Assembly (NCBI GenBank): GCA_030695565.1
Contig: JAUYRZ010000034.1
Coordinates: 1 to 64,000, forward strand
DNA length: 64,000 nucleotides
From: Archangium sp.
Lineage (GTDB): Bacteria; Myxococcota; Myxococcia; Myxococcales; Myxococcaceae
Direction of reading: 5' to 3'
This document shows positions 20,166-40,507 of the stretch, one piece after another (the stretch's first letter is position 1; each line of letters opens with the position of its first letter). The position numbers and the translations under genes were made by a program. The notes under the pieces are model-generated. The model did not search any database and was not told the DNA's origin. It was given only the letters and a program-made list of their open reading frames with translations.

Positions 20166-21296
20166 GTGCTTCCGAAAGAGGTGAAGCTGTTCTTCCAGGA
20201 GGGCAACTCCGACAAGGTCTACTACGCGCGCATCGTGCCCGCGGGCGCCAACGTCTACGACGTGGTGGTGCAGTGGGGCCGGCGCGGCAGCACGCTGAGC
20301 CAGGGCAAGAAAGCGGTGAAGGTCTCGCTGGAGAAAGCGCAGACCACGCTGGATCGCCTCGTCAAAGAGAAGACCACCAAGGGCTACGAAGCGATGAGCG
20401 GCACGGTGAAGCCCGCCGAGGTCGCGCCCCCGGTCGGTGAAGGCTCGGCCAGCAAGGCGGGCGGCGTGCGCAAGAAGGTCGGCCGGGTCGCGCAGCTGCT
20501 CAACCCCGTCGAGGTGCACGAGGTCGAGCGGCTGCTCGCCGATGACCAGGTGCTCGCGCAGCAGAAGCTCGATGGCAATCGCGTGCTCTGTCACATCGAA
20601 GACGGCGAGGTGCTTCCCACCAACCGCGCGGGTCAGAAGACCCACGTGTCTGCGCAGATCCTCGCGGGGCTCACCCATCTTCCCCACGGCACCGTGGTCG
20701 ATGGCGAAGTGGTGGGCCCCGTGTACTGGCTCTTCGACGTGCTCCAGTTCGCGGGGCGCGAGCTCACCGGGCAGTCGTGCCTCGAACGCTTCACCCTGCT
20801 CTCCGACGAAGTGGAGCCTGGCTTGAGCGAACCGGTGCGGGTGCTCGAGAGCGCGCTCACCACCCCCCAGAAGCGCAGCCTCTACGAGCGGCTGCAGCGG
20901 GCGAGCGCCGAAGGCATCGTCTTCAAGCGCAAAGCCGCGCCGTACACCGGTGGCCGGCCTTCGTCGGGCGGCACGCAGCTCAAGTGCAAGTTCGTCAGCT
21001 CAGCCGACGTGGTGTTGGTGGAGAACGCGGGCAACGCGTACCGCATGCAGGTCTACGACGGCGGCAAGCCGTTCGACGTGGGCAAGGTCTTCTCGGGTAC
21101 CACCAACGAGACGCGCGCGCGCATCGACGCGGCCCTCGGCGAGGGAAAACGGCTGGTCGCTGAAGTGCGCTACCTCTACGCGACCGATGACTCCCAGCTG
21201 TTCCAGCCCATCTTCGTGCGCGTGCGCGACGACAAGCCGGAGAAAGACTGCCTGCGCGCTCAGCTCAAGAGCACCAACCGCGACGTGCATCAGTAA
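20166..21296 (+). CDS. WGR domain-ATP-dependent DNA ligase fusion
   Basis: 376 aa. Residues 5-75 are a WGR domain (DKVYYARIVP, VVVQWGRRG), a DNA-end/nucleic-acid-binding module known from PARPs. Residues 110-280 are an ATP-dependent DNA ligase core: motif I KLDGNR with nucleophile K134, motif III VVDGEVV near 177, motif IIIa YWLFDVL near 187, motif IV EGIVFKRK near 249 and motif V QLKCKF near 271. An OB-fold-like tail follows. It should adenylate and seal nicks, probably in repair. The start is GTG. No Ku homologue is in the window. The protein is smaller than LigD. Confidence 0.85.
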   Translation: MLPKEVKLFFQEGNSDKVYYARIVPAGANVYDVVVQWGRRGSTLSQGKKAVKVSLEKAQTTLDRLVKEKTTKGYEAMSGTVKPAEVAPPVGEGSASKAGGVRKKVGRVAQLLNPVEVHEVERLLADDQVLAQQKLDGNRVLCHIEDGEVLPTNRAGQKTHVSAQILAGLTHLPHGTVVDGEVVGPVYWLFDVLQFAGRELTGQSCLERFTLLSDEVEPGLSEPVRVLESALTTPQKRSLYERLQRASAEGIVFKRKAAPYTGGRPSSGGTQLKCKFVSSADVVLVENAGNAYRMQVYDGGKPFDVGKVFSGTTNETRARIDAALGEGKRLVAEVRYLYATDDSQLFQPIFVRVRDDKPEKDCLRAQLKSTNRDVHQ

Positions 21297-21949: not shown

Positions 21950-23032
21950 TCAAACGACAGGCAGGCGCACCTGAAAGGTGGTGCCCTGACCGACGATGCT
22001 GCTGACGGCGATGCTGCCGCCCAGCTCTTCGACGATTTGTTTCGAGATGGCCAGGCCCAGCCCCGTACCGCCGTCGACCTTGGTGGTGAAGAACGGGTCG
22101 AACACCCGGCTGACCACCTCGGCCGGAATGCCGGAGCCGTTGTCTTCCACCACCAGCACCGCTTCTTTGCCCTGCGCGCTCAGGGTGACGCTCAACAGGT
22201 TGCGCTGCCGCTGCTCGGGATCGAACGCTTCGATCGCGTTGACCAGCAGGTTGAGCACCACCTGACCCAACCGTGTGCGCGAGCCGCGAATGGGCGGCAC
22301 GGCACCGGCCAGGAGCTTGAGCTGACCGCGGTGCCGCACTTCACCGGAAGCAGAGCGAACGGCGAACTCCACCACCTCCTTGAAGTCGACGTCTTCGTCG
22401 GTGCGTGAACGGGTGGAGAGCTCGACGGAGCTGATGATGTCGGCCAGCGCCTGCACCGAGGTGCGCGAGTCGCGCAGCGCTCCATCGAGAATCTTCTTGC
22501 CGGTGAGGTCGCCCACCAGCTCGCTGATCAACTCGAGGTTCATGGTGAGCGCGGTGAGCGGCCCCCGGAGTTCGTGCGCCACGCCCATGGCGATCACCCC
22601 CAGCGAATACATGCGCTCGGTCTCGCGCATGCGGCGCTCGAGCTCGGTGGCCCAACGCACGGCGCGGTAGCGCTCCACCGCGCCCACCAGCACCTGGCGC
22701 AGCTCGACCGGCTCCCACGGCTTGCGCAGGTAGAGATCGATGTGACCGCGGTTGATCGCGTCGATGGCCGCTTCGAGATCCGAATACGCGGTCATCAAGA
22801 TGCGCACGGTGTCGGGGAACTCGGTGCGCACCGCGTCGAGCAGATCGACACCCGACATGCCCGGCATGCGTTGGTCTGCCACCAGCACGGCGATCTCCTG
22901 CTTGCGCATCAGCTCGAGCGCAGCGGCGCCGCTCTGTGCGGTGACCACCGGCACGGAGCCGCGGAGACCAGCTGTGAAGACCACCAGGTTGGCGGCCTCG
23001 TCGTCGACGTACAGAACTGAAGGAGAGGTCAA
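21950..23032 (-). CDS. Response regulator-histidine kinase (REC-HisKA-HATPase)
   Basis: 360 aa. A receiver domain comes first (phospho-acceptor D53 in VLVADQRMPG), then HisKA with H153 in VAHELRGPLTAL. The ATPase lobe carries an N-box (LLVNAIEAFD), DNGSGIPAEVV and GTGLGLAISKQI. No membrane segment: a soluble kinase whose input is a phosphorelay. I start at a TTG that overlaps the upstream kinase stop (TTGA). The frame continues upstream but inside the neighbour. Last gene of the operon starting at 31682. Its receiver is a natural target of the hybrid kinase encoded just before it. Confidence 0.85.
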   Translation of the reverse strand: MTSPSVLYVDDEAANLVVFTAGLRGSVPVVTAQSGAAALELMRKQEIAVLVADQRMPGMSGVDLLDAVRTEFPDTVRILMTAYSDLEAAIDAINRGHIDLYLRKPWEPVELRQVLVGAVERYRAVRWATELERRMRETERMYSLGVIAMGVAHELRGPLTALTMNLELISELVGDLTGKKILDGALRDSRTSVQALADIISSVELSTRSRTDEDVDFKEVVEFAVRSASGEVRHRGQLKLLAGAVPPIRGSRTRLGQVVLNLLVNAIEAFDPEQRQRNLLSVTLSAQGKEAVLVVEDNGSGIPAEVVSRVFDPFFTTKVDGGTGLGLAISKQIVEELGGSIAVSSIVGQGTTFQVRLPVV

Positions 23033-25830
23033 CGGGTTCCCCTGGGAAGCGCGGCCGTGAAGGAAGTACCACCCCCGGGCCGGGGGGAGAACCGCAGATC
23101 TCCGCCCCACCTCAGCAACGACTGTCGGGAAAGGTAGAGCCCCAGGCCCGTGCCCTCGCCGGGCGCCCGCGTGGTGAAGAAGGGATCGAACAGCCGCGAG
23201 GCGATCTCTTCGGGCACGCCGGGCCCGTCATCGGCCACCGAGATCTCCACCCGCTCGCCCACTTCTTTGATCGAGAGCCACACGTTGCGCGCCGGCGCGC
23301 GGATGGCGTTGTCGATCAGGTTCACGAACACCTGGTTCAGCTCGGCCGCCGAGGCCACCACCTGCACGTCGGCGTAGTCGCGGTGCACCTGCACATCGAG
23401 CAGGCGGTGCTGCAGCAAACGCACGGTGGAGTCGAGCCCCGCCCGCGGGTCCACCGGTCGCACGCCGCCGCCGTCGCCCGGGCTCACGTGCGTGAGCAAG
23501 GCGCCGCTGATCACGTCGATGCGCTGCGCTCCTTCGGCGATCACCGCGAGCAGCTGCGTGTCTGACTCGTCCAGCCCCGGGCGAGCCTGCAGCGCGCGGA
23601 CCCCGTTGAGCACCGCGTTGACGGGGTTGCGCACCTCGTGACCGACGCCCGCAGCCAGCGTGCCCACCGCGGCCAGGCGCGCCGAGGCGGTGACCTGCAA
23701 CGAGAGCGAACGCAGCCGCAGCTGCGCCTGCACCCGGGCCACCAACACGCGCGGGTGAAACGGTTTCTCCACGAACTCGTCGGCGCCCGAGGCGAACCCT
23801 TCGATGGCCGCGTCGGTGCCCCCCCGCGCGGTGAGCAGGATGACCGGCGTGGCCGCGATGACCGGGTCGGCTTTGATGGCCTTGCACAGCTGCGTGCCGC
23901 TCAGGCCCGGCATCATCACGTCGGAGAGCACGAGCTCGGGCCGCTGCCGCTTCACGCTCTCCAGGCCCGCAAGACCGTCAGCGGCCACCAACACGTCGAA
24001 GGACACCGAGAGCAGATCGACCAACATCGCCCGCACGTCGGGGTTGTCCTCCACCACCAGCACGCGCGCGCGCCGGCCTCCGTCGAAGACGATGGCCCCG
24101 CTCGTCGCCTGCGGAGCGGACCCCAGCGGGCCCCGCGGGTCGGGCGCGATCACCTCGAGCTCGGCGTCGGACGCACGCCTTGCCTCGGAGCCTTCGAGCT
24201 GAACCTGCCGGCGCTCCAGCGCCTCGGGCTTGATGTGACCCTTGCCGCGCGGCAACACGATGGTGAACGCGGCGCCCTGGCCCACCTCGCTGGTCACCTC
24301 CAACCGGCCGCCGTGTAGCTCGACCAGGTTGCGCGCGAGCGCGAGCCCGATGCCCACGCCGCCCACCCGGCGGCCCGACGCTTCGTCGGCCTGGTAGTAG
24401 CGCTCGAAGATGCGGGTGAGATCGGCGGCCGCGATGCCCGGGCCGGTGTCCTGCACGGTGACCCGCACTTCGCCCGGCGTCTCCTCGACGCGCAGGGTGA
24501 CCTTGCCGCCCGAAGGCGTGAACTTGAAGGCGTTGCCCAGCAGGTTCGAGAGCGCGCTGTCGAGGCGGTGCGAGTCGCCCCAGAGATCGCTGGTCGACTC
24601 GAGGCCCTCCACCTTCAGCTCCAGCCCCCGCGCTTCGGCCGCGCTCGCGAAGAGCACGCCCAGCTGCCGGGCCATCGCGCCCATGTCGAGCGAGGCGTGG
24701 TCGAGGCGCAGCTGGCCTGCGTCGATGCGCGAGAGGTCGAGCAGGTCGTCGATCAACCGCAGCAGGCGCCACGAATTGCGGCGCAGGCCTTCAAGGAGCC
24801 GGCGCTCTTCGGCGGGCACGTCGCGGCCGAGGCGATCGTCGAGTGGCGCGAGGATCAAGGTGAGCGGCGTGCGCAGCTCGTGCGAGACGTTCGCGAAGAA
24901 CTCGCTCTTGAGCGCGTCGAGCTGCCGCAGCCGCTCGAGGGCTGCCGACAGCTCGCTGGTGCGCTCGGTGACGCGTTGATCGAGCTGCACGTTGACGCGG
25001 AACGCTTCGGCGGCGCGCTCCTGCAGCTCGTCCATCGATTGGCGCATGGCGTGGGTGGTCTGCTCCAGCAACGATTCCTTCTGCGCTGAGAGCCGCCGCA
25101 CGTCGCTCCACCCGCCGTAGCCGAAGCCCAGCGCGATGAACGAGGCGAGCGTCTCCAACAGCCCGAAGTGACCGAAGTGCGCGGCGAGCGGCGCGAGGGC
25201 CGCCCCCAGCGCGGCGCCCACCCAGCGCCGCCACGTGCCTGGCTTCGGGTTCTGCCAGGTCAGCTCGTAGCGGCAGCAATCGGCCCCGTTCACCTGGCAC
25301 TGCAGCTCGATCACCTGGGCGGGCGGCAGATCCCAGATGGAGGGGAACGCGGCGTAGTTGGCCATGCGGCCGATGCACGAGTTGCGGTTCCGCTCGGGCC
25401 GGCCGCTCGTGTACGTGAGGGTCATCGACCACGGCGACTCGCGTTCGATCGCGAAGCGCCCCGCGCGGTTGTAGGTGGGGGAGAACTCGACCGACTTGCG
25501 GTAGGCGAGGCCCGGGCTGCCGACGCTGCGCAAGATGTAATACGCAAAACCCAGCGCTTCGGGCGTGGCGATGTTGCTCGCGGCGAAGATCATGAAGTCG
25601 GGATCGCCCGAACCCCGCACCAACTCGTCGAGCAGCAGCTCGAGAAAATCGAGTGAGACGAAGTTGTTCGGCCCTGCCAGGTACTCGAGAGAGAGCGGCA
25701 TGGGCCGCTCGGCCCACAACGCTTCGAGCCGCGCGCGCCCGTACCGCTTCTCGAAGCTCAGCAGAAACGTCTTGAGCAGGCGCGCGCCGACCTCGGGCTT
25801 GTCCCACTGCCGGGTGGCCTCTCCCGTCAT
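23029..25830 (-). CDS. Hybrid sensor kinase with V4R-like input and two kinase cores
   Basis: 933 aa. Residues 1-195 resemble the V4R/haem-NO-like small-ligand domain common in myxobacterial kinases, ending in LQCQVNGADCCRYELTW. A short hydrophobic pair (200-240) and a coiled coil follow. Kinase core 1 has H317 in NVSHELRTPLTL and GGVGIGLALARNLVELHGG. A receiver follows (VLVVEDNPDV; acceptor in LVLSDVMMPG). A second kinase core has GVGHEVRNPVNAV and GTGLGLYLSRQS. Both cores keep their His and G-boxes. Two complete cores flanking one receiver is unusual. Overlaps its neighbours by 4 bases on both sides. Confidence 0.85.
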   Translation of the reverse strand: MTGEATRQWDKPEVGARLLKTFLLSFEKRYGRARLEALWAERPMPLSLEYLAGPNNFVSLDFLELLLDELVRGSGDPDFMIFAASNIATPEALGFAYYILRSVGSPGLAYRKSVEFSPTYNRAGRFAIERESPWSMTLTYTSGRPERNRNSCIGRMANYAAFPSIWDLPPAQVIELQCQVNGADCCRYELTWQNPKPGTWRRWVGAALGAALAPLAAHFGHFGLLETLASFIALGFGYGGWSDVRRLSAQKESLLEQTTHAMRQSMDELQERAAEAFRVNVQLDQRVTERTSELSAALERLRQLDALKSEFFANVSHELRTPLTLILAPLDDRLGRDVPAEERRLLEGLRRNSWRLLRLIDDLLDLSRIDAGQLRLDHASLDMGAMARQLGVLFASAAEARGLELKVEGLESTSDLWGDSHRLDSALSNLLGNAFKFTPSGGKVTLRVEETPGEVRVTVQDTGPGIAAADLTRIFERYYQADEASGRRVGGVGIGLALARNLVELHGGRLEVTSEVGQGAAFTIVLPRGKGHIKPEALERRQVQLEGSEARRASDAELEVIAPDPRGPLGSAPQATSGAIVFDGGRRARVLVVEDNPDVRAMLVDLLSVSFDVLVAADGLAGLESVKRQRPELVLSDVMMPGLSGTQLCKAIKADPVIAATPVILLTARGGTDAAIEGFASGADEFVEKPFHPRVLVARVQAQLRLRSLSLQVTASARLAAVGTLAAGVGHEVRNPVNAVLNGVRALQARPGLDESDTQLLAVIAEGAQRIDVISGALLTHVSPGDGGGVRPVDPRAGLDSTVRLLQHRLLDVQVHRDYADVQVVASAAELNQVFVNLIDNAIRAPARNVWLSIKEVGERVEISVADDGPGVPEEIASRLFDPFFTTRAPGEGTGLGLYLSRQSLLRWGGDLRFSPRPGGGTSFTAALPRGTR

Positions 25831-26615
25831 GCCGGCCTGCGCCCCGTCACCGTCAACACCACCGCGTACTTGAGCGCATCGGGGTCGGAGAGCATCGCGA
25901 GGTAGCCTTTGGCGAACGCCCAGTACCGCTGCTCGTCGCCGAAAGACTTCACGGCGATGGGCGCGAGCACCTCGAAACGTTGGGTGTAGTCGGCCACCAG
26001 GCGCGCATCGGCGCCCGCGGCCACGTAGAGCGGCGACAGGTGCACGCTCACGTCGTGCAGACCCGCCTGCTTGAACCAGGTGAAGAGCTTGCGGCCCACG
26101 AAGAAGTCGAAGCCCGTCGAACTGAGCGCGCGCATGAAGGGCTCGATGCCCTCTTCCACCACTGCCGGCCGGGGCCAGAAGGCGAGGCCGATGCCGTCGA
26201 TGTCGGCGACCGACACCGTGCCCCCGGGCCGGGTGATGCGAATCATCTCACGCAGTGACGCTTCGGGCTCGCGCAGGTACTCGAAGACGAACTGGCTCCA
26301 GCTGAAGTCGAAGTGGGCGTCGGGAAGCCCGGTGGCCGGGAGCGCGCCGACGTGCGCCTGAGCGTTCTTCGAGCCCTTCACCAGCGTGTTCGCTTCCGCC
26401 ACGCGCTCGGGGCTCACGTCGAGGCCGGTGACGAAGCCATCGGGCCCGACCAGCTCGAGCATCGAGGGCATCACCGCGCCCGAGCCGCAGCCGAGGTCGA
26501 CCACGCGCATGCCGGGCTGCAGGCCGGCCGAGCGCAGCCGCACGGTGCTGGGGTTGGCGGTCTCCTGCTGGAGCAGGCGCCGGCCTTCTTGCGACGACTC
26601 CATCAGGTAGCTCAT
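25827..26615 (-). CDS. SAM-dependent methyltransferase (class I)
   Basis: 262 aa. Motif I is VVDLGCGSGAVMPSM near residue 39, the acidic motif II residue lies in VTGLDVSPERV, and the post-motif is PDAHFDFSWSQFVFEYL. It should methylate a small molecule, lipid or protein; the acceptor is not evident. It sits inside the signalling operon, overlapping both flanking genes by 4 bases, so it is probably part of the same output rather than housekeeping. No CheR-type features, hence chemotaxis methylation is unlikely. Confidence 0.8.
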   Translation of the reverse strand: MSYLMESSQEGRRLLQQETANPSTVRLRSAGLQPGMRVVDLGCGSGAVMPSMLELVGPDGFVTGLDVSPERVAEANTLVKGSKNAQAHVGALPATGLPDAHFDFSWSQFVFEYLREPEASLREMIRITRPGGTVSVADIDGIGLAFWPRPAVVEEGIEPFMRALSSTGFDFFVGRKLFTWFKQAGLHDVSVHLSPLYVAAGADARLVADYTQRFEVLAPIAVKSFGDEQRYWAFAKGYLAMLSDPDALKYAVVLTVTGRRPA

Positions 26616-29023
26616 GCCGTGGGCCTCTCCGCCTCGCCCGCGTCGACGTGGGCGACCGCTTCCTTCTCATGTCTGCGCAGACGGGCAAAGACAGAGATCA
26701 TCTGGCTGGTCATCTCGCGCACCACCGAACGATGCGCGCCGAACTCGAACACCGGGCCCATGCTGTGGAAGCCCATCGCCTCGAGGTCGGCCACGTCGGT
26801 GGCGAACGCGTGGCACTCTGCTTCTCTTCGCCCCTGGCGGGCGTAGACGGCCGCGGCGTGCGCCGCCAACGAGGTGCGGGCCTCGGCCGCGCCCGGCCCG
26901 TGCGGATCGATCAGGTACAGCCGGAACGAGCTGTACATCTCGGCCCAGAAGAGACCCGGCGACATGGTCTCCAGCAACGCCCAGCCCAGGGGCGCGCCGT
27001 GTCGATCCTCCACCACCGTCAGGCTGCGGCCGCGGCTGAGCCCCCGCGCGCCGAACCTGCCCGACAGGCTCTCCAGGTGCAGCTCGCCGGGCACCAGATC
27101 GTCGCTGAGCACCTTGACCGGATCCTCCGAGGCGCCCGCGTGGGCAAGGAAGGCGCTCTCGTCGTCGGGCCCTGCGTCGCGCACGCGCAACGGCCCGGGC
27201 GCAGGCTGGCGTTCGAGCGACAAGCGCATCGGCTCGAAACGCACCCGGTAGGCCAGCCCGGGGCGCAGCACCCGCACCGACAAGGCGCCGTAGATGCGCT
27301 CGGCCCAGCGGTTCGACGCGCGCCACAGGCCTCGCACGTAGTCCACGTCGGGCAGCGCCTCGCCGTAGTCGAAGCTCAGGCACATCAGCTGCTGCGAGAG
27401 CGCGGCGGAGCGGTGGTAGCCCGACTTCACCATCAGGTGCTGCGAGAGCCAGGTGCGCGAGTAGATGCGCAGCCCCGAGGTGTGACCGGCCAGCTCACCG
27501 TCTTGCAGGATGACGAAGGTCTTCCCCAGACCGTGGGCACCGGCGCCCATCAGGCCATGGGTGCGCTCCGGAGCGAGCGGCTCGCTGGGCGTGGAGTGAT
27601 CGCGCCACACCGCGCCTTCGTCGGCGAAGAAGTCCCAGATTTTTCCGAACGGGGTGGTCGAGCCACACTCCGCGCCCACCACCAGGTGGCGCACCAGCAG
27701 GTCGAGCAGCACCTGGCGATCGGCGTCGGTGATGCAGGTGAACTGCAGGCCACAACGCCGCTCCCCATCGTCTTCGGTGCCGGCCCGCCCCATCGAGGCG
27801 ACCACCGCCGAGACCTGGATGCGGCGCTCCCCCAGCTGGAGCTGCACGTCATCCAGCCGCAGGCCGAGGGGAAAGACGTCGATGGCCGGGTCGACCCGGA
27901 AGCAGGCCCCGATCGAACTCAAGTCGAGCACGGGTCTGGTGACGCGTAAGCCACTGAGCGGCGAGACCACGGTGATGGCCGCGCTGACCGTACCCGCCGG
28001 CACGCGCAGGCTGGTGCGGCGATGCACCTGCAGCAACGCCTGCGGCACGGCCACCACCAGCTTCTCGTCGGTCGCGCTCAACACGCCGGCGTACCCCGAG
28101 AGCTGCCGGCCGTTGATCTCGAACGACAAACGCACCGCCTGCCCCGGCGCCCAGTACGCCCGCGGCGTCGAGGCGGGCTCGAGCAGGTGCAGCACCCGGC
28201 CGTCATGACCTGCCCGTGCGAAGAGCTGAGAGAACGCGCCGTCGTCGGTGCCCACCGTGAAGGCGTTGCCCGAGCGGCTGGCCGACTTGAGCAAGGCACA
28301 GATGCGCAGCGCGTTGGTGAGGCGCTGGGGCGCCGCGGGCGTGCGGCGATGGGTCTCGAAGACCGCGCCGACCTGCAACGCGCTCCCTTTCAACTCGGCG
28401 CTCCCCTTCAGCTCGTTCCCCCACTCCGGGTTGCCCTCCACCCGGCGCACCGTCTGCACGATGCAGGAGACCTCTTCCATCAACACCACCTGGCCCCGCC
28501 GCAGCCGGGTCAACACGATGGGCTCACCGGGCATCAACGCCGCGAGGTGAGGGCCCGCGGCCACCAGCAGGCCAACGCCTTCGTTCGACACGTCGATGCA
28601 GGTCGCCTTGAGGGGGATGCCGCGCGTGACGATGGTCGCGTCGATGGGCACCGAAGCCAGATGGCGCGGCGAGGCGCGCCTGCGCACCAGGGCCTTGAGC
28701 TTCCAGGGGGCGTCGTCGTCGAGCGTGAGGAAATCGAAGCCGGCCGCGGCGATCGCCTCGAGCTCTTCCAGCGCCTCGGCATCTGCGGTCGGGGCCAACA
28801 CCACCCGGGTGGCACTCGGTGCCTTGCGGTCGAGCTCTGCGAGCAGCTTCTTGAGCTCGCCGTGATGCGAGACCACCAGTGAAGGTGCCTGTGAAAGGAA
28901 AGGCGCGGCTTCTTTGCGCGAGGCCGCCTCGAGGTACTCGTTGCCGCTCTCTCCCAGGATGGCCTTGAGGAGTGAACGAACCTCAGGTTGCGGATGAATG
29001 ATCAAGACAGGTCGGGGGGCCAT
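26612..29023 (-). CDS. PilZ protein with degenerate receiver and GNAT-like C-terminus (paralogue A)
   Basis: 803 aa. Residues 1-110 have receiver-like secondary structure (PVLIIHPQPEVRSLLKAIL) but lack the acceptor Asp (VVSHHGE). PilZ domain 1 has RRRASPR near 114 and DVSNEG near 144. A YcgR-like domain holds PilZ 2, with HRRTSLR near 334 and DLSSIG near 367. Both signatures are intact, so c-di-GMP binding is likely. Residues 455-780 are shared with the paralogue at 29652. They read like two GNAT-type halves, each with a strand, hydrophobic core and helix (SGLRIYSRTWLSQHL and APLGWALLETMSPGLFWAEM). The acyltransferase idea is inference. It may be a c-di-GMP-controlled enzyme or scaffold. Confidence 0.75.
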   Translation of the reverse strand: MAPRPVLIIHPQPEVRSLLKAILGESGNEYLEAASRKEAAPFLSQAPSLVVSHHGELKKLLAELDRKAPSATRVVLAPTADAEALEELEAIAAAGFDFLTLDDDAPWKLKALVRRRASPRHLASVPIDATIVTRGIPLKATCIDVSNEGVGLLVAAGPHLAALMPGEPIVLTRLRRGQVVLMEEVSCIVQTVRRVEGNPEWGNELKGSAELKGSALQVGAVFETHRRTPAAPQRLTNALRICALLKSASRSGNAFTVGTDDGAFSQLFARAGHDGRVLHLLEPASTPRAYWAPGQAVRLSFEINGRQLSGYAGVLSATDEKLVVAVPQALLQVHRRTSLRVPAGTVSAAITVVSPLSGLRVTRPVLDLSSIGACFRVDPAIDVFPLGLRLDDVQLQLGERRIQVSAVVASMGRAGTEDDGERRCGLQFTCITDADRQVLLDLLVRHLVVGAECGSTTPFGKIWDFFADEGAVWRDHSTPSEPLAPERTHGLMGAGAHGLGKTFVILQDGELAGHTSGLRIYSRTWLSQHLMVKSGYHRSAALSQQLMCLSFDYGEALPDVDYVRGLWRASNRWAERIYGALSVRVLRPGLAYRVRFEPMRLSLERQPAPGPLRVRDAGPDDESAFLAHAGASEDPVKVLSDDLVPGELHLESLSGRFGARGLSRGRSLTVVEDRHGAPLGWALLETMSPGLFWAEMYSSFRLYLIDPHGPGAAEARTSLAAHAAAVYARQGRREAECHAFATDVADLEAMGFHSMGPVFEFGAHRSVVREMTSQMISVFARLRRHEKEAVAHVDAGEAERPTA

Positions 29024-29067
29024 GCGCTGCTCCTTGTTGTGCCCCCCAAGGCATCACTGCATCGTGT

Positions 29068-29652
29068 TCATCCGCTACGTGGCTTGGGCCTGACCAGCCC
29101 CAACACTTCGAGCTTCGACAACACCTCGGCCGGCTGAAAAGGTTTGCGCAAGAACGCCGCCGCGCCCGCTTCGTGAAACTTCTTCTCGAGCTCAGCGCTG
29201 TGCCGGCCGCTCATGGCGAGCACCGCGATGCTGGCGGTCTGCGGTGATTCTTTGAGCCGCCGGCAGACCTCGAGGCCATCCATACCCGGCATGTACGAGT
29301 CGAGCAGCACCACCTCGGGGCGCAGCAAACCGACCTTGAGCAGACCATCGAGGGCGTTCTCGGCGAGCGAGACCTCGATGGGAAAATCAGACTTCGCCAG
29401 CAGCGCACCGAGCGAGCGCAGGTAGGTGGGCTCGTCATCGATGACCAGCAGCCGCACCTTCTCGCCCTCCAGCTCGCGGGGCACCGGCAGGCGGTGCGCA
29501 CGCAGGAAGTCGACCAGCTCGTCGGAGGCCACCCGGCGATGCCCCCCCGGCGTGCGGAACGCGCGCAGCTTGCCCTGCTCGATCCACTTGAGGACGGACG
29601 AGGGGCTGACCTGAACGAGCGAAGCCACTTCGTGGGAGGTCAGCAGGCGCAT
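29068..29652 (-). CDS. HTH (MerR/excisionase-type)-receiver protein
   Basis: 194 aa. Residues 1-55 are a helix-turn-helix of the excisionase/BldC type (TSHEVASLVQVSPSSVLKWI, then the GGHRR wing). Residues 65-190 are a receiver domain with D118 in VVLLDSYMPGMDG and the conserved Lys in FLRKPF. DNA-binding first and receiver second is the reverse of the usual order. It lies between the two PilZ paralogues, its start sharing one base with the upstream stop. It is a probable transcription output of the kinases in the same operon. Confidence 0.85.
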   Translation of the reverse strand: MRLLTSHEVASLVQVSPSSVLKWIEQGKLRAFRTPGGHRRVASDELVDFLRAHRLPVPRELEGEKVRLLVIDDEPTYLRSLGALLAKSDFPIEVSLAENALDGLLKVGLLRPEVVLLDSYMPGMDGLEVCRRLKESPQTASIAVLAMSGRHSAELEKKFHEAGAAAFLRKPFQPAEVLSKLEVLGLVRPKPRSG

Positions 29653-31682
29653 CAGGAGGTCAGGCCGTCGGGTTCGTTCATGGGCCTGACGTCTCCGTTG
29701 TCACGCCGCCGCACGCGCGCCAACACCGAGTTCATCTGGGTGATGAAGTCGCGCACCACCGAGCGGTGAGCGCCGAACTCGTAGACCGGGCCCAGGCGTA
29801 CGAACCCCAGCGACTGCAGGTCTTCCACGTCGGCGTTCGAAGCGTGGCACTCCACCTCGCGTCGGCCTGCCCGGGCTGCCTGCAGGGTGGCCCACGAAGC
29901 GAGCGAACTGCGCGCCTGCGCGGCGAGCGCACCCGAAGCGTCGAGCAGGAAGATTCGGAACGAGGTGTACATCTCGGCCCAGAAGAGACCCGGTGACATG
30001 GTCTCGAGCAGCGCCCAGCCCAGGGGCGCGCCGCGATCGTCTTGCACCACCACCAGCGAGCGGCCGCGCGAGAGGCCCAGCGCGCCGAAGCGGCGCGACA
30101 ACGTCTCGAGCCGCAGCTCTCCGGGCACCAGGTCGTCGCTGAGCAGCTTGACGGGATCTTCCGAGGCAGAAGCGAACGCGAGAAACGCGCGTTCGTCATC
30201 GGGCCCCGCGGCGCGCACCCGCAAGGGCGCGGGCACGAACGCAGCGGTGGGCAGCCGCATCGGCTCGAACCGAACGCGGTACGCGAGGCCCGGCTTGAGC
30301 AGCCGCGAAGAGACCCCGTCGTAGATGCGCTCGGCGCGACTCGACACCCGCCACAGCCCGCGCACGTACTCCACGTCGGCCAGCGCCTCGCCGTACTCGA
30401 AGCTCAACGACAACACCTGCTGCGAGAGCGTACCCGCGCGGTGAAAACCCGACTTCACCAGCAGGTGCTGTGCGAGCCAGGTGCGTGAATAGATGCGCAG
30501 GCCCGAGCTGTGCGCGGCCAGCTCACCCTCACGCTGCACCACCACGGTCTTGGAGAGCCCGTGCGAGCCATCACCCAGCAGTTGCTGGGTGGCCGAGGGG
30601 GGGCCTGAATGATCGCGCCAAAGCGCGCCTTCTTCCCGGAAGAGCTCCCAGATGCGGGGGAACGCGACCGACGAACCACAGGCCGCACCTTCCACCCGAT
30701 GGTGCAGCAGCAGGTCGACCAGGCGTTGGCGCTCCTCGGCGGAGACCGAGGTGAACGCGAGGTGGCCGACCGACGTGGTGATGGCGGAGAAGTGCAGCCG
30801 CTCGCTTGCGAACTCCAGCATCACGCGCTCGAGCCGAAGCCCTGGAGGAACGACGTCGGCGGGGTCGACCTTGAAGCTCGCCCCCGTGGCGCTGAGTTGA
30901 AGGACGGTGCGGCACCGCAGCAGGCCACTGAGCGGCGAGACGAAAGTGATCGACGCACCCGGCGGCAACGCCAGCGCACGCAGGTCGGTGCGGGGAGGCC
31001 GGGCGGCCAGCACACGAGGCAGGTGCAACACCACCGCGTGGCCCGAGGCGATCACCACGGCCGCGTGACCGGTCAGCTGGCGGCCATTGGCCTCGAAGGA
31101 CACGGTGACGATCTGCCCCGGCTGCCACTGCGGCGCGCCGCGCGGCGAAGGGCGAGGCAGGTAGAGCTGCTGGTCTTCGATGCGGGCCGACTCGAACTTC
31201 TCTTCGACCGGCGAATGATCGGTGGCCACCGTGAAGCGGGTGCCCCCGGAGCAGGCGGCCTCCAGCACCACGCGCACTCGAAGCGGGCTGGTGATGCGCA
31301 GCGGCAACGCAGGCGCGTTCTCGCTGGGAACAAAATGAGCGGCCACGAAGAGGAGCTCGGTGCCTTCGACGGAGCTGACGCGCTCCACCGTGCAGGTCAC
31401 CTCGCCCATCAACACTTCTTCTCCCCGGTGCAGCGCGCCCAGCTGAAGCACCTCGCCCACGGCCGCGGCGACCTGCTGCGGCACCAGCAGGCCCACGCCC
31501 TCGTTCGAGACTTCGATGCAGGTTGCTTTGAAGGTCTGGCCGTCGCGAAGCACGGTGGCGTCGATCGGCGTGGTGAGCGGGCGGGCCGCGGAGAGCCGGG
31601 CCAGGCGCTTGAAGTCCTCGTGCAGCGCGGTCTCCAGCTCGGAGCGCTGCGGCTCACTCAAGGTGGTCGGACGACGGAACAT
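29652..31682 (-). CDS. PilZ protein with GNAT-like C-terminus (paralogue B)
   Basis: 676 aa from the ATG beginning MFRRPTT. The frame continues upstream, but that stretch covers the promoter. It matches paralogue A from its first PilZ to the end and lacks the receiver-like segment. The first PilZ reads EVSNEG (Glu for Asp). The second keeps RTDLR but has QLSATG (Gln for Asp), so c-di-GMP binding may be weaker. The C-terminal region (LRIYSRTWLAQHLLVKSGFH, APLGWALLETMSPGLFWAEM) is nearly the same as in A. First gene of the operon. A and B could form a heteromer, one binding c-di-GMP and one not. Confidence 0.75.
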   Translation of the reverse strand: MFRRPTTLSEPQRSELETALHEDFKRLARLSAARPLTTPIDATVLRDGQTFKATCIEVSNEGVGLLVPQQVAAAVGEVLQLGALHRGEEVLMGEVTCTVERVSSVEGTELLFVAAHFVPSENAPALPLRITSPLRVRVVLEAACSGGTRFTVATDHSPVEEKFESARIEDQQLYLPRPSPRGAPQWQPGQIVTVSFEANGRQLTGHAAVVIASGHAVVLHLPRVLAARPPRTDLRALALPPGASITFVSPLSGLLRCRTVLQLSATGASFKVDPADVVPPGLRLERVMLEFASERLHFSAITTSVGHLAFTSVSAEERQRLVDLLLHHRVEGAACGSSVAFPRIWELFREEGALWRDHSGPPSATQQLLGDGSHGLSKTVVVQREGELAAHSSGLRIYSRTWLAQHLLVKSGFHRAGTLSQQVLSLSFEYGEALADVEYVRGLWRVSSRAERIYDGVSSRLLKPGLAYRVRFEPMRLPTAAFVPAPLRVRAAGPDDERAFLAFASASEDPVKLLSDDLVPGELRLETLSRRFGALGLSRGRSLVVVQDDRGAPLGWALLETMSPGLFWAEMYTSFRIFLLDASGALAAQARSSLASWATLQAARAGRREVECHASNADVEDLQSLGFVRLGPVYEFGAHRSVVRDFITQMNSVLARVRRRDNGDVRPMNEPDGLTS

Positions 31683-31731
31683 GGGAACCTTGTCGCTTCT
31701 TCGCGTGAGGGCGACCGTAGGAAGCGCAGGA

Positions 31732-31760
31732 AAAGTAGAATTAACAGCTTTGAGATTCAA
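31732..31760 (-). promoter_or_regulatory. Possible sigma70-type promoter of the signalling operon
   Basis: The minus strand reads TTGAAT, 17 bases, TACTTT. The -35 box is a good match, and the -10 box keeps the first T, the A and the last T. This would give a leader of about 40 bases before the ATG at 31682. The surrounding 230-base spacer is the most AT-rich stretch nearby. Confidence 0.35.
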
Positions 31761-38989: not shown

Positions 38990-40507
38990 ATGACGGCGTG
39001 GGCTGCAGTGCATCTGTTGGCAGCAGCCTCGGGCCTGATGGTCATCGCGCTGGCGCTCTCGAAGGGTGAACGCAGCCCGCTGCGAAGGCCTCTGGCCTTG
39101 TTGGCCGCCAGCCAGTTCACCTGGAACGCCGCCGCGGTGGGCTCCGAGGTGACGCAGGTCGAGACCTACGCCTTGCTGGGCGCGATCGCTGCACCGCTGT
39201 TCACGCCACTCGCGCTGCACTTCGTCATCACCTTCCTGGGCCGCCGCCGCCAGCTGCGTGTCCCGCTGCTGGCCGTGTACGTGGTCTTCCTCTCGCAGTC
39301 GGCCGCGGTGCTCGTCGAGCTCATCGTGCCGGGCACGCAGTTCGCCAGTGGCGTGGGCGCCTTCGCGCTCGTGTTGTTGACCACCAGCCTGCCCGTCGCC
39401 GTCTACGCCATCGTCCTGGTCGCGAAGCATCTTCGGCAGGCGGCCTCGGACGTCGAGCGGCTTCGCACGCGCATCTTGTTGCTTGCCGTGGTGGTGGTGC
39501 CGCTGCTGCTGACGACGGACCTGTTCGCAGACCTCGGCTGGCCGGTGCCGCGCATGGCCACCCTGGGCGCCTTCAGCTTCAACCTGATGCTCGCGCGGCT
39601 GACCCTGGGCCTGGGCCTCTTCACCGGTGCGACCCGGCCCTCGGTGGCGCTCGGTCAGGCCGTGGTGCTCGGGCTGTTCTTCGCGGTGAGTTACCTCGCC
39701 ATCTTCAATGCCTTCAGCGGACAACAAGGCGCGTTGATCATCGCCTTCACCGCCTTGTCACTGGTGCTCTCGGTGGTGGGCTGGCTCTTGCTGAGCAACA
39801 GCAGCGCTGCGCGGGCGGGGCTCGAACGGTTCGCCACCATGGGCCGCTTCTCCGCGCAGATGGCGCACGACCTGAAGAACCCGCTGGCCGCCGCGAAAGG
39901 CGCAGCCGAGTACCTCACCGAAGAGCTGCGCCGCAGTGGCGACGCGCCCAACGAAGACTTCGCCAGGCTGGTGGTCGCGCAGCTCGATCGCCTCAACACG
40001 GTCATCGATCGCTATCAGCGGCTCTCCAAGCTCGAGCCGCAGTTCAGCTCGCTCGACGCGAACATGTTGGTGAGCAACGTGCTCTCGCTGCAACAGTTCG
40101 CGGCCGAAAGCGCGGTGAGCATCGAGCGCAAGTTCGCCACGCCGCCGCCTCGTTTCCTGGGCGACGCCGACCTGCTCGCCTCCGCGCTGGAGAACCTGGT
40201 GAAGAACGGCATGGAGGCGATGCCCACCGGCGGCACGTTGACCGTCTCCACCGCGCTCACTGAAGACGACGAGCCGCGGGTGGTGCTCTCGGTGCAAGAC
40301 ACCGGGGCCGGCTTCGATGCGCGCGCGAAAGAGCAGGCCTTCGAGCTCTTCTTCACCACCAAGGCGACCGGCTCGGGCCTGGGCCTCGCGTTCGTGCGGC
40401 AGGTCGCGCGCGCGCATGGTGGTGATGCCGTACTGACTTCTCGCGAAGGTGCGGGCACGACTGTTTCTGTGACACTTCCCCTGACTCAGGTGACGACGCA
40501 TGAGTGA
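38990..40507 (+). CDS. Membrane sensor histidine kinase
   Basis: 505 aa. Residues 1-270 hold about eight membrane segments, resembling 7TM/MASE-type sensor regions. HisKA has H293 in MAHDLKNPLAAAKG. The ATPase lobe shows ENLVKNGMEAM (N box), VQDTGAGFD and GSGLGLAFVRQVARAHGG. It should phosphorylate the NtrC-type regulator encoded next, whose start overlaps this stop by 8 bases. The ligand is unknown; lipid or a membrane state is plausible because almost no extracytoplasmic loop is long. Confidence 0.85.
   Translation: MTAWAAVHLLAAASGLMVIALALSKGERSPLRRPLALLAASQFTWNAAAVGSEVTQVETYALLGAIAAPLFTPLALHFVITFLGRRRQLRVPLLAVYVVFLSQSAAVLVELIVPGTQFASGVGAFALVLLTTSLPVAVYAIVLVAKHLRQAASDVERLRTRILLLAVVVVPLLLTTDLFADLGWPVPRMATLGAFSFNLMLARLTLGLGLFTGATRPSVALGQAVVLGLFFAVSYLAIFNAFSGQQGALIIAFTALSLVLSVVGWLLLSNSSAARAGLERFATMGRFSAQMAHDLKNPLAAAKGAAEYLTEELRRSGDAPNEDFARLVVAQLDRLNTVIDRYQRLSKLEPQFSSLDANMLVSNVLSLQQFAAESAVSIERKFATPPPRFLGDADLLASALENLVKNGMEAMPTGGTLTVSTALTEDDEPRVVLSVQDTGAGFDARAKEQAFELFFTTKATGSGLGLAFVRQVARAHGGDAVLTSREGAGTTVSVTLPLTQVTTHE

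Follow-up and report, generated by a model that had tools for sequence, protein, structure and literature searches.

What a run of six closely packed genes in a myxobacterium is for, and whether any part of it belongs to a system already described, is the question raised by positions 21950–31682 (minus strand) of the 64,000-nucleotide sequence of Archangium sp. analysed here (contig JAUYRZ010000034.1; the whole stretch is referred to below as the window). The run encodes, in gene order, a PilZ-GNAT fusion protein (fusion B), a helix-turn-helix protein with a receiver domain (HTH-REC), a second PilZ-GNAT fusion (fusion A), a methyltransferase, a hybrid histidine kinase with two kinase cores (HK-REC-HK), and a receiver–histidine kinase (REC-HK). 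A sequence-only reading had taken this set for a single circuit unlike any described system; however, fusion A is almost certainly an orthologue of PixB, a published receptor of cyclic di-GMP (c-di-GMP) that affects both motility and development (PMC8316039). At its core, the run is therefore a locus already known, and the six genes are a partly duplicated, larger form of the pixB operon. What is new, beside the known pixB locus, is the extension of the operon and the comparative evidence, according to which the linkage of PixB, methyltransferase, and kinase is near-invariant across almost the whole family.

Identity and conservation of the pixB unit

In Myxococcus xanthus, PixB (MXAN_2604) is a c-di-GMP-binding protein that exerts Frz-dependent control over reversals and is required for development (PMC8316039). 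Among soil myxobacteria, the gene is known to control gliding and fruiting, and it is upregulated as M. xanthus develops (PMC8844925). Its c-di-GMP residues are R121 and R331, and its second PilZ motifs lack Ser (PMC8316039). Scanning genomes with aligned relatives recovered a homologue of 804 aa in M. xanthus strain AM003 (L057:5386-7800), which has Arg at positions 121 and 331 and is missing the Ser from both second PilZ motifs; because this homologue shares these features with the published PixB, fusion A (26612–29023; 803 aa) can be assigned to PixB with little doubt. The RxxxR motifs of fusion A (R116xxxR120 and R336xxxR340) align to M. xanthus R121 and R331, and, as in the PixB group, two PilZ domains are followed by a GNAT-type C-terminal domain, with the methyltransferase and hybrid kinase genes downstream. 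The two downstream genes mentioned in the publication are the counterparts of these window genes: in L057, the methyltransferase is 50% and the hybrid kinase 41% identical to that of the window, and the genes are joined by 4-nucleotide (nt) overlaps. A literature lookup by the tags MXAN_2605 and MXAN_2606 gave no match. The window locus differs from that of M. xanthus in that its PixB has Ser in both second PilZ motifs, in that the operon has extra genes on both sides (HTH-REC and the PixB duplicate upstream of pixB, REC-HK at the downstream end), and in that the kinase body comes from another lineage.

The neighbourhood survey proposed with the sequence-only reading was run on a sample of 193 genomes of the phylum, 70 of which have a PixB-type gene. 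Downstream of every contiguous full-length PixB gene (67/67), a homologue of the kinase sensor was found on the same strand and contig, whereas in the other three genomes PixB and the kinase lie on separate contigs. In 66 of the 67, PixB and the kinase are separated by 790–865 nt, which matches the length of the methyltransferase gene (the gap in G042 is 81 nt), and a tblastn search confirmed the methyltransferase in the examined loci that cover this interval. Its apparent absence from some loci was rejected as an artefact of open reading frame (ORF) calling, since tblastn finds the gene. The kinase thus recurs beside PixB with a constant methyltransferase spacing, which bears out the expectation of one co-inherited unit, and the recurrence of the gene order in other genomes indicates that the operon is more than a chance arrangement.

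HTH-REC and REC-HK join this trio in the lineage of the window: at an identity of at least 55%, both accompany PixB in G000, G003, G004, G022, and G155 (three genera) and in none of the other sampled PixB genomes. The second PixB copy, fusion B, is present in two genomes only (G000 and G004). One contig of G004 carries a B-like gene, HTH-REC, and the start of PixB, and another carries the kinase and REC-HK; because the two contigs carry its two halves, the six-gene order is probably common to G004 across the contig gap. Fusion A, the kinase, HTH-REC, and REC-HK all went undetected in three congeners, two of which are only about 80% complete.

In the window, all six ORFs are present and open, and the order and domains read earlier from the sequence stand, with the GNAT part recognised by fold instead of by Pfam. 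The junctions also agree with that reading (a 1-nt overlap, a gap, then three 4-nt overlaps), except that the gap measures 44 and not 45 nt. Fusion B (29652–31682; 676 aa) has an ATG start, with an alternative TTG at 31760, and Pfam matches PilZ in the fusion proteins. HTH-REC (29068–29652; HTH_17 and receiver) is a response regulator with a MerR/BldC-like helix-turn-helix, and its C-terminal receiver keeps the Asp and Lys. The methyltransferase (25827–26615; Methyltransf_11/25), which overlaps its neighbours by 4 nt on each side, is of class I, dependent on S-adenosylmethionine, and further searches for its family gave generic class I matches. The hybrid kinase (23029–25830) consists of a sensor, a hydrophobic hairpin, a first kinase core (HK1), a receiver, and a second core (HK2), with two HisKA/HATPase pairs and the receiver matched by Pfam. 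REC-HK (21950–23032) has a TTG start, with a longer alternative from GTG at 23110; a receiver and a HATPase were matched in it, its HisKA match is near the threshold, and no DNA-binding domain was found.

The kinase sensor and the exchange of kinase bodies

The sensor of the hybrid kinase (residues 14–195; 25246–25791) has the fold of the H-NOX/V4R superfamily: the N-terminal 195 residues match an H-NOX-like fold with a Z score of 15.0 over 172 residues and a root-mean-square deviation of 2.8, and the fold is shared with sensors that bind phenol or other ligands (MopR, PoxR, and VirS). When the sensor alignment was used as a profile against solved structures, it gave only coiled-coil and low-complexity matches, and the Pfam matches (PF12625, HNOB, and V4R) are all sub-threshold. 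Alignment to a profile of Myxococcota H-NOX proteins gave a probability of 93.7, for the C-terminal part only, and placed the sensor residues C152, C178, and C186 on or beside H-NOX Cys columns. These three cysteines are invariant in 21 sequences, as is Y110; by eye, the three-Cys cluster is missing from the more distant G055 kinase.

No His was found at or beside the proximal heme position in the 21 sensor sequences, and a heme-based H-NOX identity was therefore rejected. The zinc ligands of the Shewanella oneidensis H-NOX are C139, H161, C164, and C172 (PMC7108781); the spacing from Cys to Cys is 26 and 8 in the sensor versus 25 and 8 in S. oneidensis, and an invariant E175, three residues before C178, occupies the place of H161. 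The sensor thus has a fold in common with H-NOX proteins, including the heme-free redox-sensing H-NOX of Vibrio cholerae (PMC7108781), but it differs from them in the missing proximal His, the Glu at the place of His161, the fusion to a kinase, and the hydrophobic hairpin that follows it. With the V4R, MopR-PoxR, and MetOD1 sensors (PMC5847659) it shares the superfamily and a three-Cys cluster, although its score against the V4R family is below the Pfam cut-off. The likeliest assignment is a heme-free sensor of metal or thiol state or of a small molecule, and the Cys3-Glu site provides a testable feature. The hydrophobic hairpin, whose hydropathy is weak in the window copy, makes a membrane anchor for the kinase possible.

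The phosphotransfer residues are intact in 28–29 of 29 kinases, and all are intact in the hybrid kinase of the window. The parts of this kinase have different relatives: the HK2 of the window clade groups with that of G040, a member of another family, with support of 100/100 and away from all other PixB kinases, while its sensor falls with that of the M. xanthus type (94/94, without a star in the tree). The HK1-REC tree, read without the G004 row (a mistranslated contig end), resolves less clearly than that of HK2 and gives G040 only a weak placement beside the window clade. G040 carries a compact relative of the operon (L106:6296-11440), in which a PilZ-methyltransferase fusion is followed by HK-REC-HK and REC-HK, and its kinase has the same body but an N-terminus with multiple transmembrane segments. 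The 32% identity obtained for a G040 "sensor" is meaningless, coming from a forced alignment of this transmembrane region. On the simplest account, a G040-type cassette was apparently the source from which the pixB operon acquired both the kinase body and REC-HK together.

The kinase has also changed in two order-level relatives, G042 and G055, whose kinases end, after the same sensor and an HK-REC part, in an HD-GYP domain that keeps the HHExxDGxGYP motif intact. This domain is likely to be a c-di-GMP hydrolase, which would place such a hydrolase beside the c-di-GMP receptor; the two kinases reinforce the link to c-di-GMP and suggest that one sensor type can feed c-di-GMP turnover. By comparison of these loci, the sensor, the methyltransferase, and PixB are the constant part through the changes of kinase body.

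Domain architecture of PixB and of its second copy

The structure model of PixB (mean predicted local distance difference test score 81.5) divides the protein into four parts. Residues 1–115 (28679–29023) have a receiver fold, matching receiver chains with Z scores of about 14, without phospho-acceptor or acidic pocket, and are classed as a pseudo-receiver. The first PilZ domain (residues 116–222; 28358–28678) contains R116xxxR120 and the second motif DVSNEG, and residues 231–450 (27674–28333) form a YcgR/MrkH-like N-domain and the second PilZ domain, with R336xxxR340 and DLSSIG. Residues 448–770 (26714–27682) adopt a tandem GNAT fold according to the model and its fold matches; no Pfam match to GNAT was obtained at E ≤ 10, and the domain was detected by fold alone. 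Six residues (D642, R664, R666, E695, H764, and R765) are invariant in 29 of 29 sequences, whereas the acyl-coenzyme A (CoA) P-loop, Q/RxxGxG/A, is absent by eye from both GNAT halves of all members examined, including that of M. xanthus. PixB resembles the tandem GNATs VipF, MAB_4324, and a histidine acetyltransferase (9emd) in fold, but differs from them in the missing canonical P-loop and in the fusion to PilZ. A PilZ domain is likewise fused to a GNAT-superfamily enzyme in the N-acyl amino acid synthase Nas354, in which, however, the enzyme is a single, N-terminal FeeM-type domain (PMC4897644); FeeM is not among the matches listed for the PixB fold.

Fusions A and B are paralogues with 55–57% identity. 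Fusion B groups with the G004 copy inside the genus of the window (support 100/99), which identifies it as a lineage duplicate, and by this evidence it is classed as a tandem duplicate of PixB. It has lost the N-terminal pseudo-receiver, and its identity to fusion A is 44–48% in the PilZ parts and 64–71% in the GNAT halves. The first PilZ domain has lost RxxxR, the second Arg being replaced by Ala, and reads EVSNEG at the second motif; the second PilZ domain retains RTDLR, but Asp is changed to Gln (QLSATG). Neither domain of fusion B thus shows the complete c-di-GMP-binding motifs (RxxxR and D/NxSxxG), whereas all of the invariant GNAT residues are retained. Fusion B is a natural PixB variant with degraded c-di-GMP motifs, in which output would be retained and control by c-di-GMP weakened, and the proposed joint control of both fusions is accordingly doubtful for B. 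Published work gives a concrete expectation: when M. xanthus PixB is deprived of its PilZ domains, it still rescues motility but fails to restore development (PMC8316039).

Other PilZ-GNAT proteins were observed in the survey. A second subfamily (L048, L049, and L050, e.g., L050:8506-10725), of about 700 aa and about 23% identical to PixB, has no pseudo-receiver and occurs in many Myxococcaceae as a solitary gene without kinases, and a third, of about 778 aa, occurs in genus g26. A PixB-like gene of G023 (L046:468-6577; 25% identical) adjoins a gene for a Ser/Thr kinase-AAA-TPR protein, with no histidine kinase. A typical Myxococcus pixB locus is found in L053 (BNCN01000003.1), whose title, Comamonas sp. 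KCTC 72670, probably belongs to a mislabelled or mixed record.

A proposed joint mechanism and its alternatives

Since PixB is a verified c-di-GMP receptor, the comparison bears on its upstream input and its biochemical output, and it names the missing partners: the methyltransferase and one specific sensor kinase, which in M. xanthus are the two genes right after pixB. As a linkage, the connection of phosphorylation and c-di-GMP to one output is well supported by these gene neighbourhoods. As a mechanism, joint control in the extended operon has about an even chance of being correct. The sensor kinase would be set by an internal cue, either the redox state of the Cys3-Glu site or a small molecule acting there; the kinase and REC-HK would drive HTH-REC, and this regulator would control transcription, its targets probably being motility genes or the operon itself. 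The PixB pseudo-receiver would probably dock on the kinase and thereby bring kinase state and c-di-GMP together on one protein, the GNAT part alone would set the reversal frequency in growth, and the methyltransferase would modify either what the GNAT part produces or some protein of that pathway. Copy B would probably give a GNAT output less dependent on c-di-GMP.

Several points weigh against this mechanism. PixB has no phosphorylatable receiver, and of the single circuit proposed in the sequence-only reading, the co-inherited unit and the c-di-GMP link hold, whereas control of PixB by phosphorylation is conjecture. Catalysis by the GNAT part is uncertain in the window and in M. xanthus, because a canonical CoA loop is missing from both halves. 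In G013, the kinase is present (L102:5610-8561) although PixB and the methyltransferase are not, which indicates that it can serve another function. Because conservation of the linkage is confined to a single family plus a few relatives at order level, the genomes are not independent. In the window organism, the support for the mechanism consists of sequence comparison.

The main rival, although unlikely, is that the PixB GNAT part, together with the methyltransferase, synthesises a small molecule of acyl or methylated type, which the kinase sensor detects and whose production is gated by c-di-GMP. The Phc quorum-sensing operon phcBSRQ (PMC8578825) likewise joins a methyltransferase, a sensor kinase, and a receiver-kinase without a DNA-binding domain, although PilZ-GNAT is present in the window and its methyltransferase is assigned only as generic class I. 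The G040 cassette, in which the window-type kinase body and a REC-HK accompany a PilZ-methyltransferase protein, the ligand-binding relatives of the sensor fold, and the constancy of sensor, methyltransferase, and PixB would all fit such a circuit; however, the methyltransferase matches no recognised signal synthase, the tandem GNAT lacks the canonical acyl-CoA loop, and a released signal is without evidence, extracellular complementation of pixB not being reported in the accessible part of PMC8316039. That PixB and the methyltransferase would make a c-di-GMP-gated intracellular or released signal sensed by the kinase through its H-NOX/V4R fold is a slightly more doubtful proposition; if true, it would amount to a family-wide chemical signalling circuit for reversals and fruiting, with the kinase output swapped between histidine kinase and c-di-GMP hydrolase.

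A non-catalytic PixB is as improbable as the main rival. The pseudo-receiver and a degenerate tandem GNAT would here bind the kinase and a motility regulator as a scaffold, with c-di-GMP switching the binding, and the presence of the pseudo-receiver in full-length members, the absence of the P-loop from both GNAT halves throughout, and the fact that, in the accessible part of the 2021 paper, the acetyltransferase role is based on domain deletion (PMC8316039) are consistent with it; the six invariant residues, which resemble an active or ligand site, argue against it. Mere co-transcription, in which the kinases serve another pathway and are tied to pixB by a shared need in starvation without direct contact, is improbable to a greater degree, since the order is fixed with start-stop overlaps in nearly all genomes and sensor and PixB are missing together elsewhere, although the lone kinase of G013 and the persistence of PixB while kinase bodies change would fit it.

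Three minor observations concern neighbouring genes. By eye, the gene next to the kinase of G013 codes for a POT-type transporter, an arrangement shared with M. xanthus. Another histidine kinase gene in the window (38990–40507, plus strand) shows weak similarity to the kinase part of REC-HK. In an ORF at 20166–21296 (plus strand), what appears by eye to be a WGR domain lies N-terminal to a putative ATP-dependent DNA ligase-like domain.

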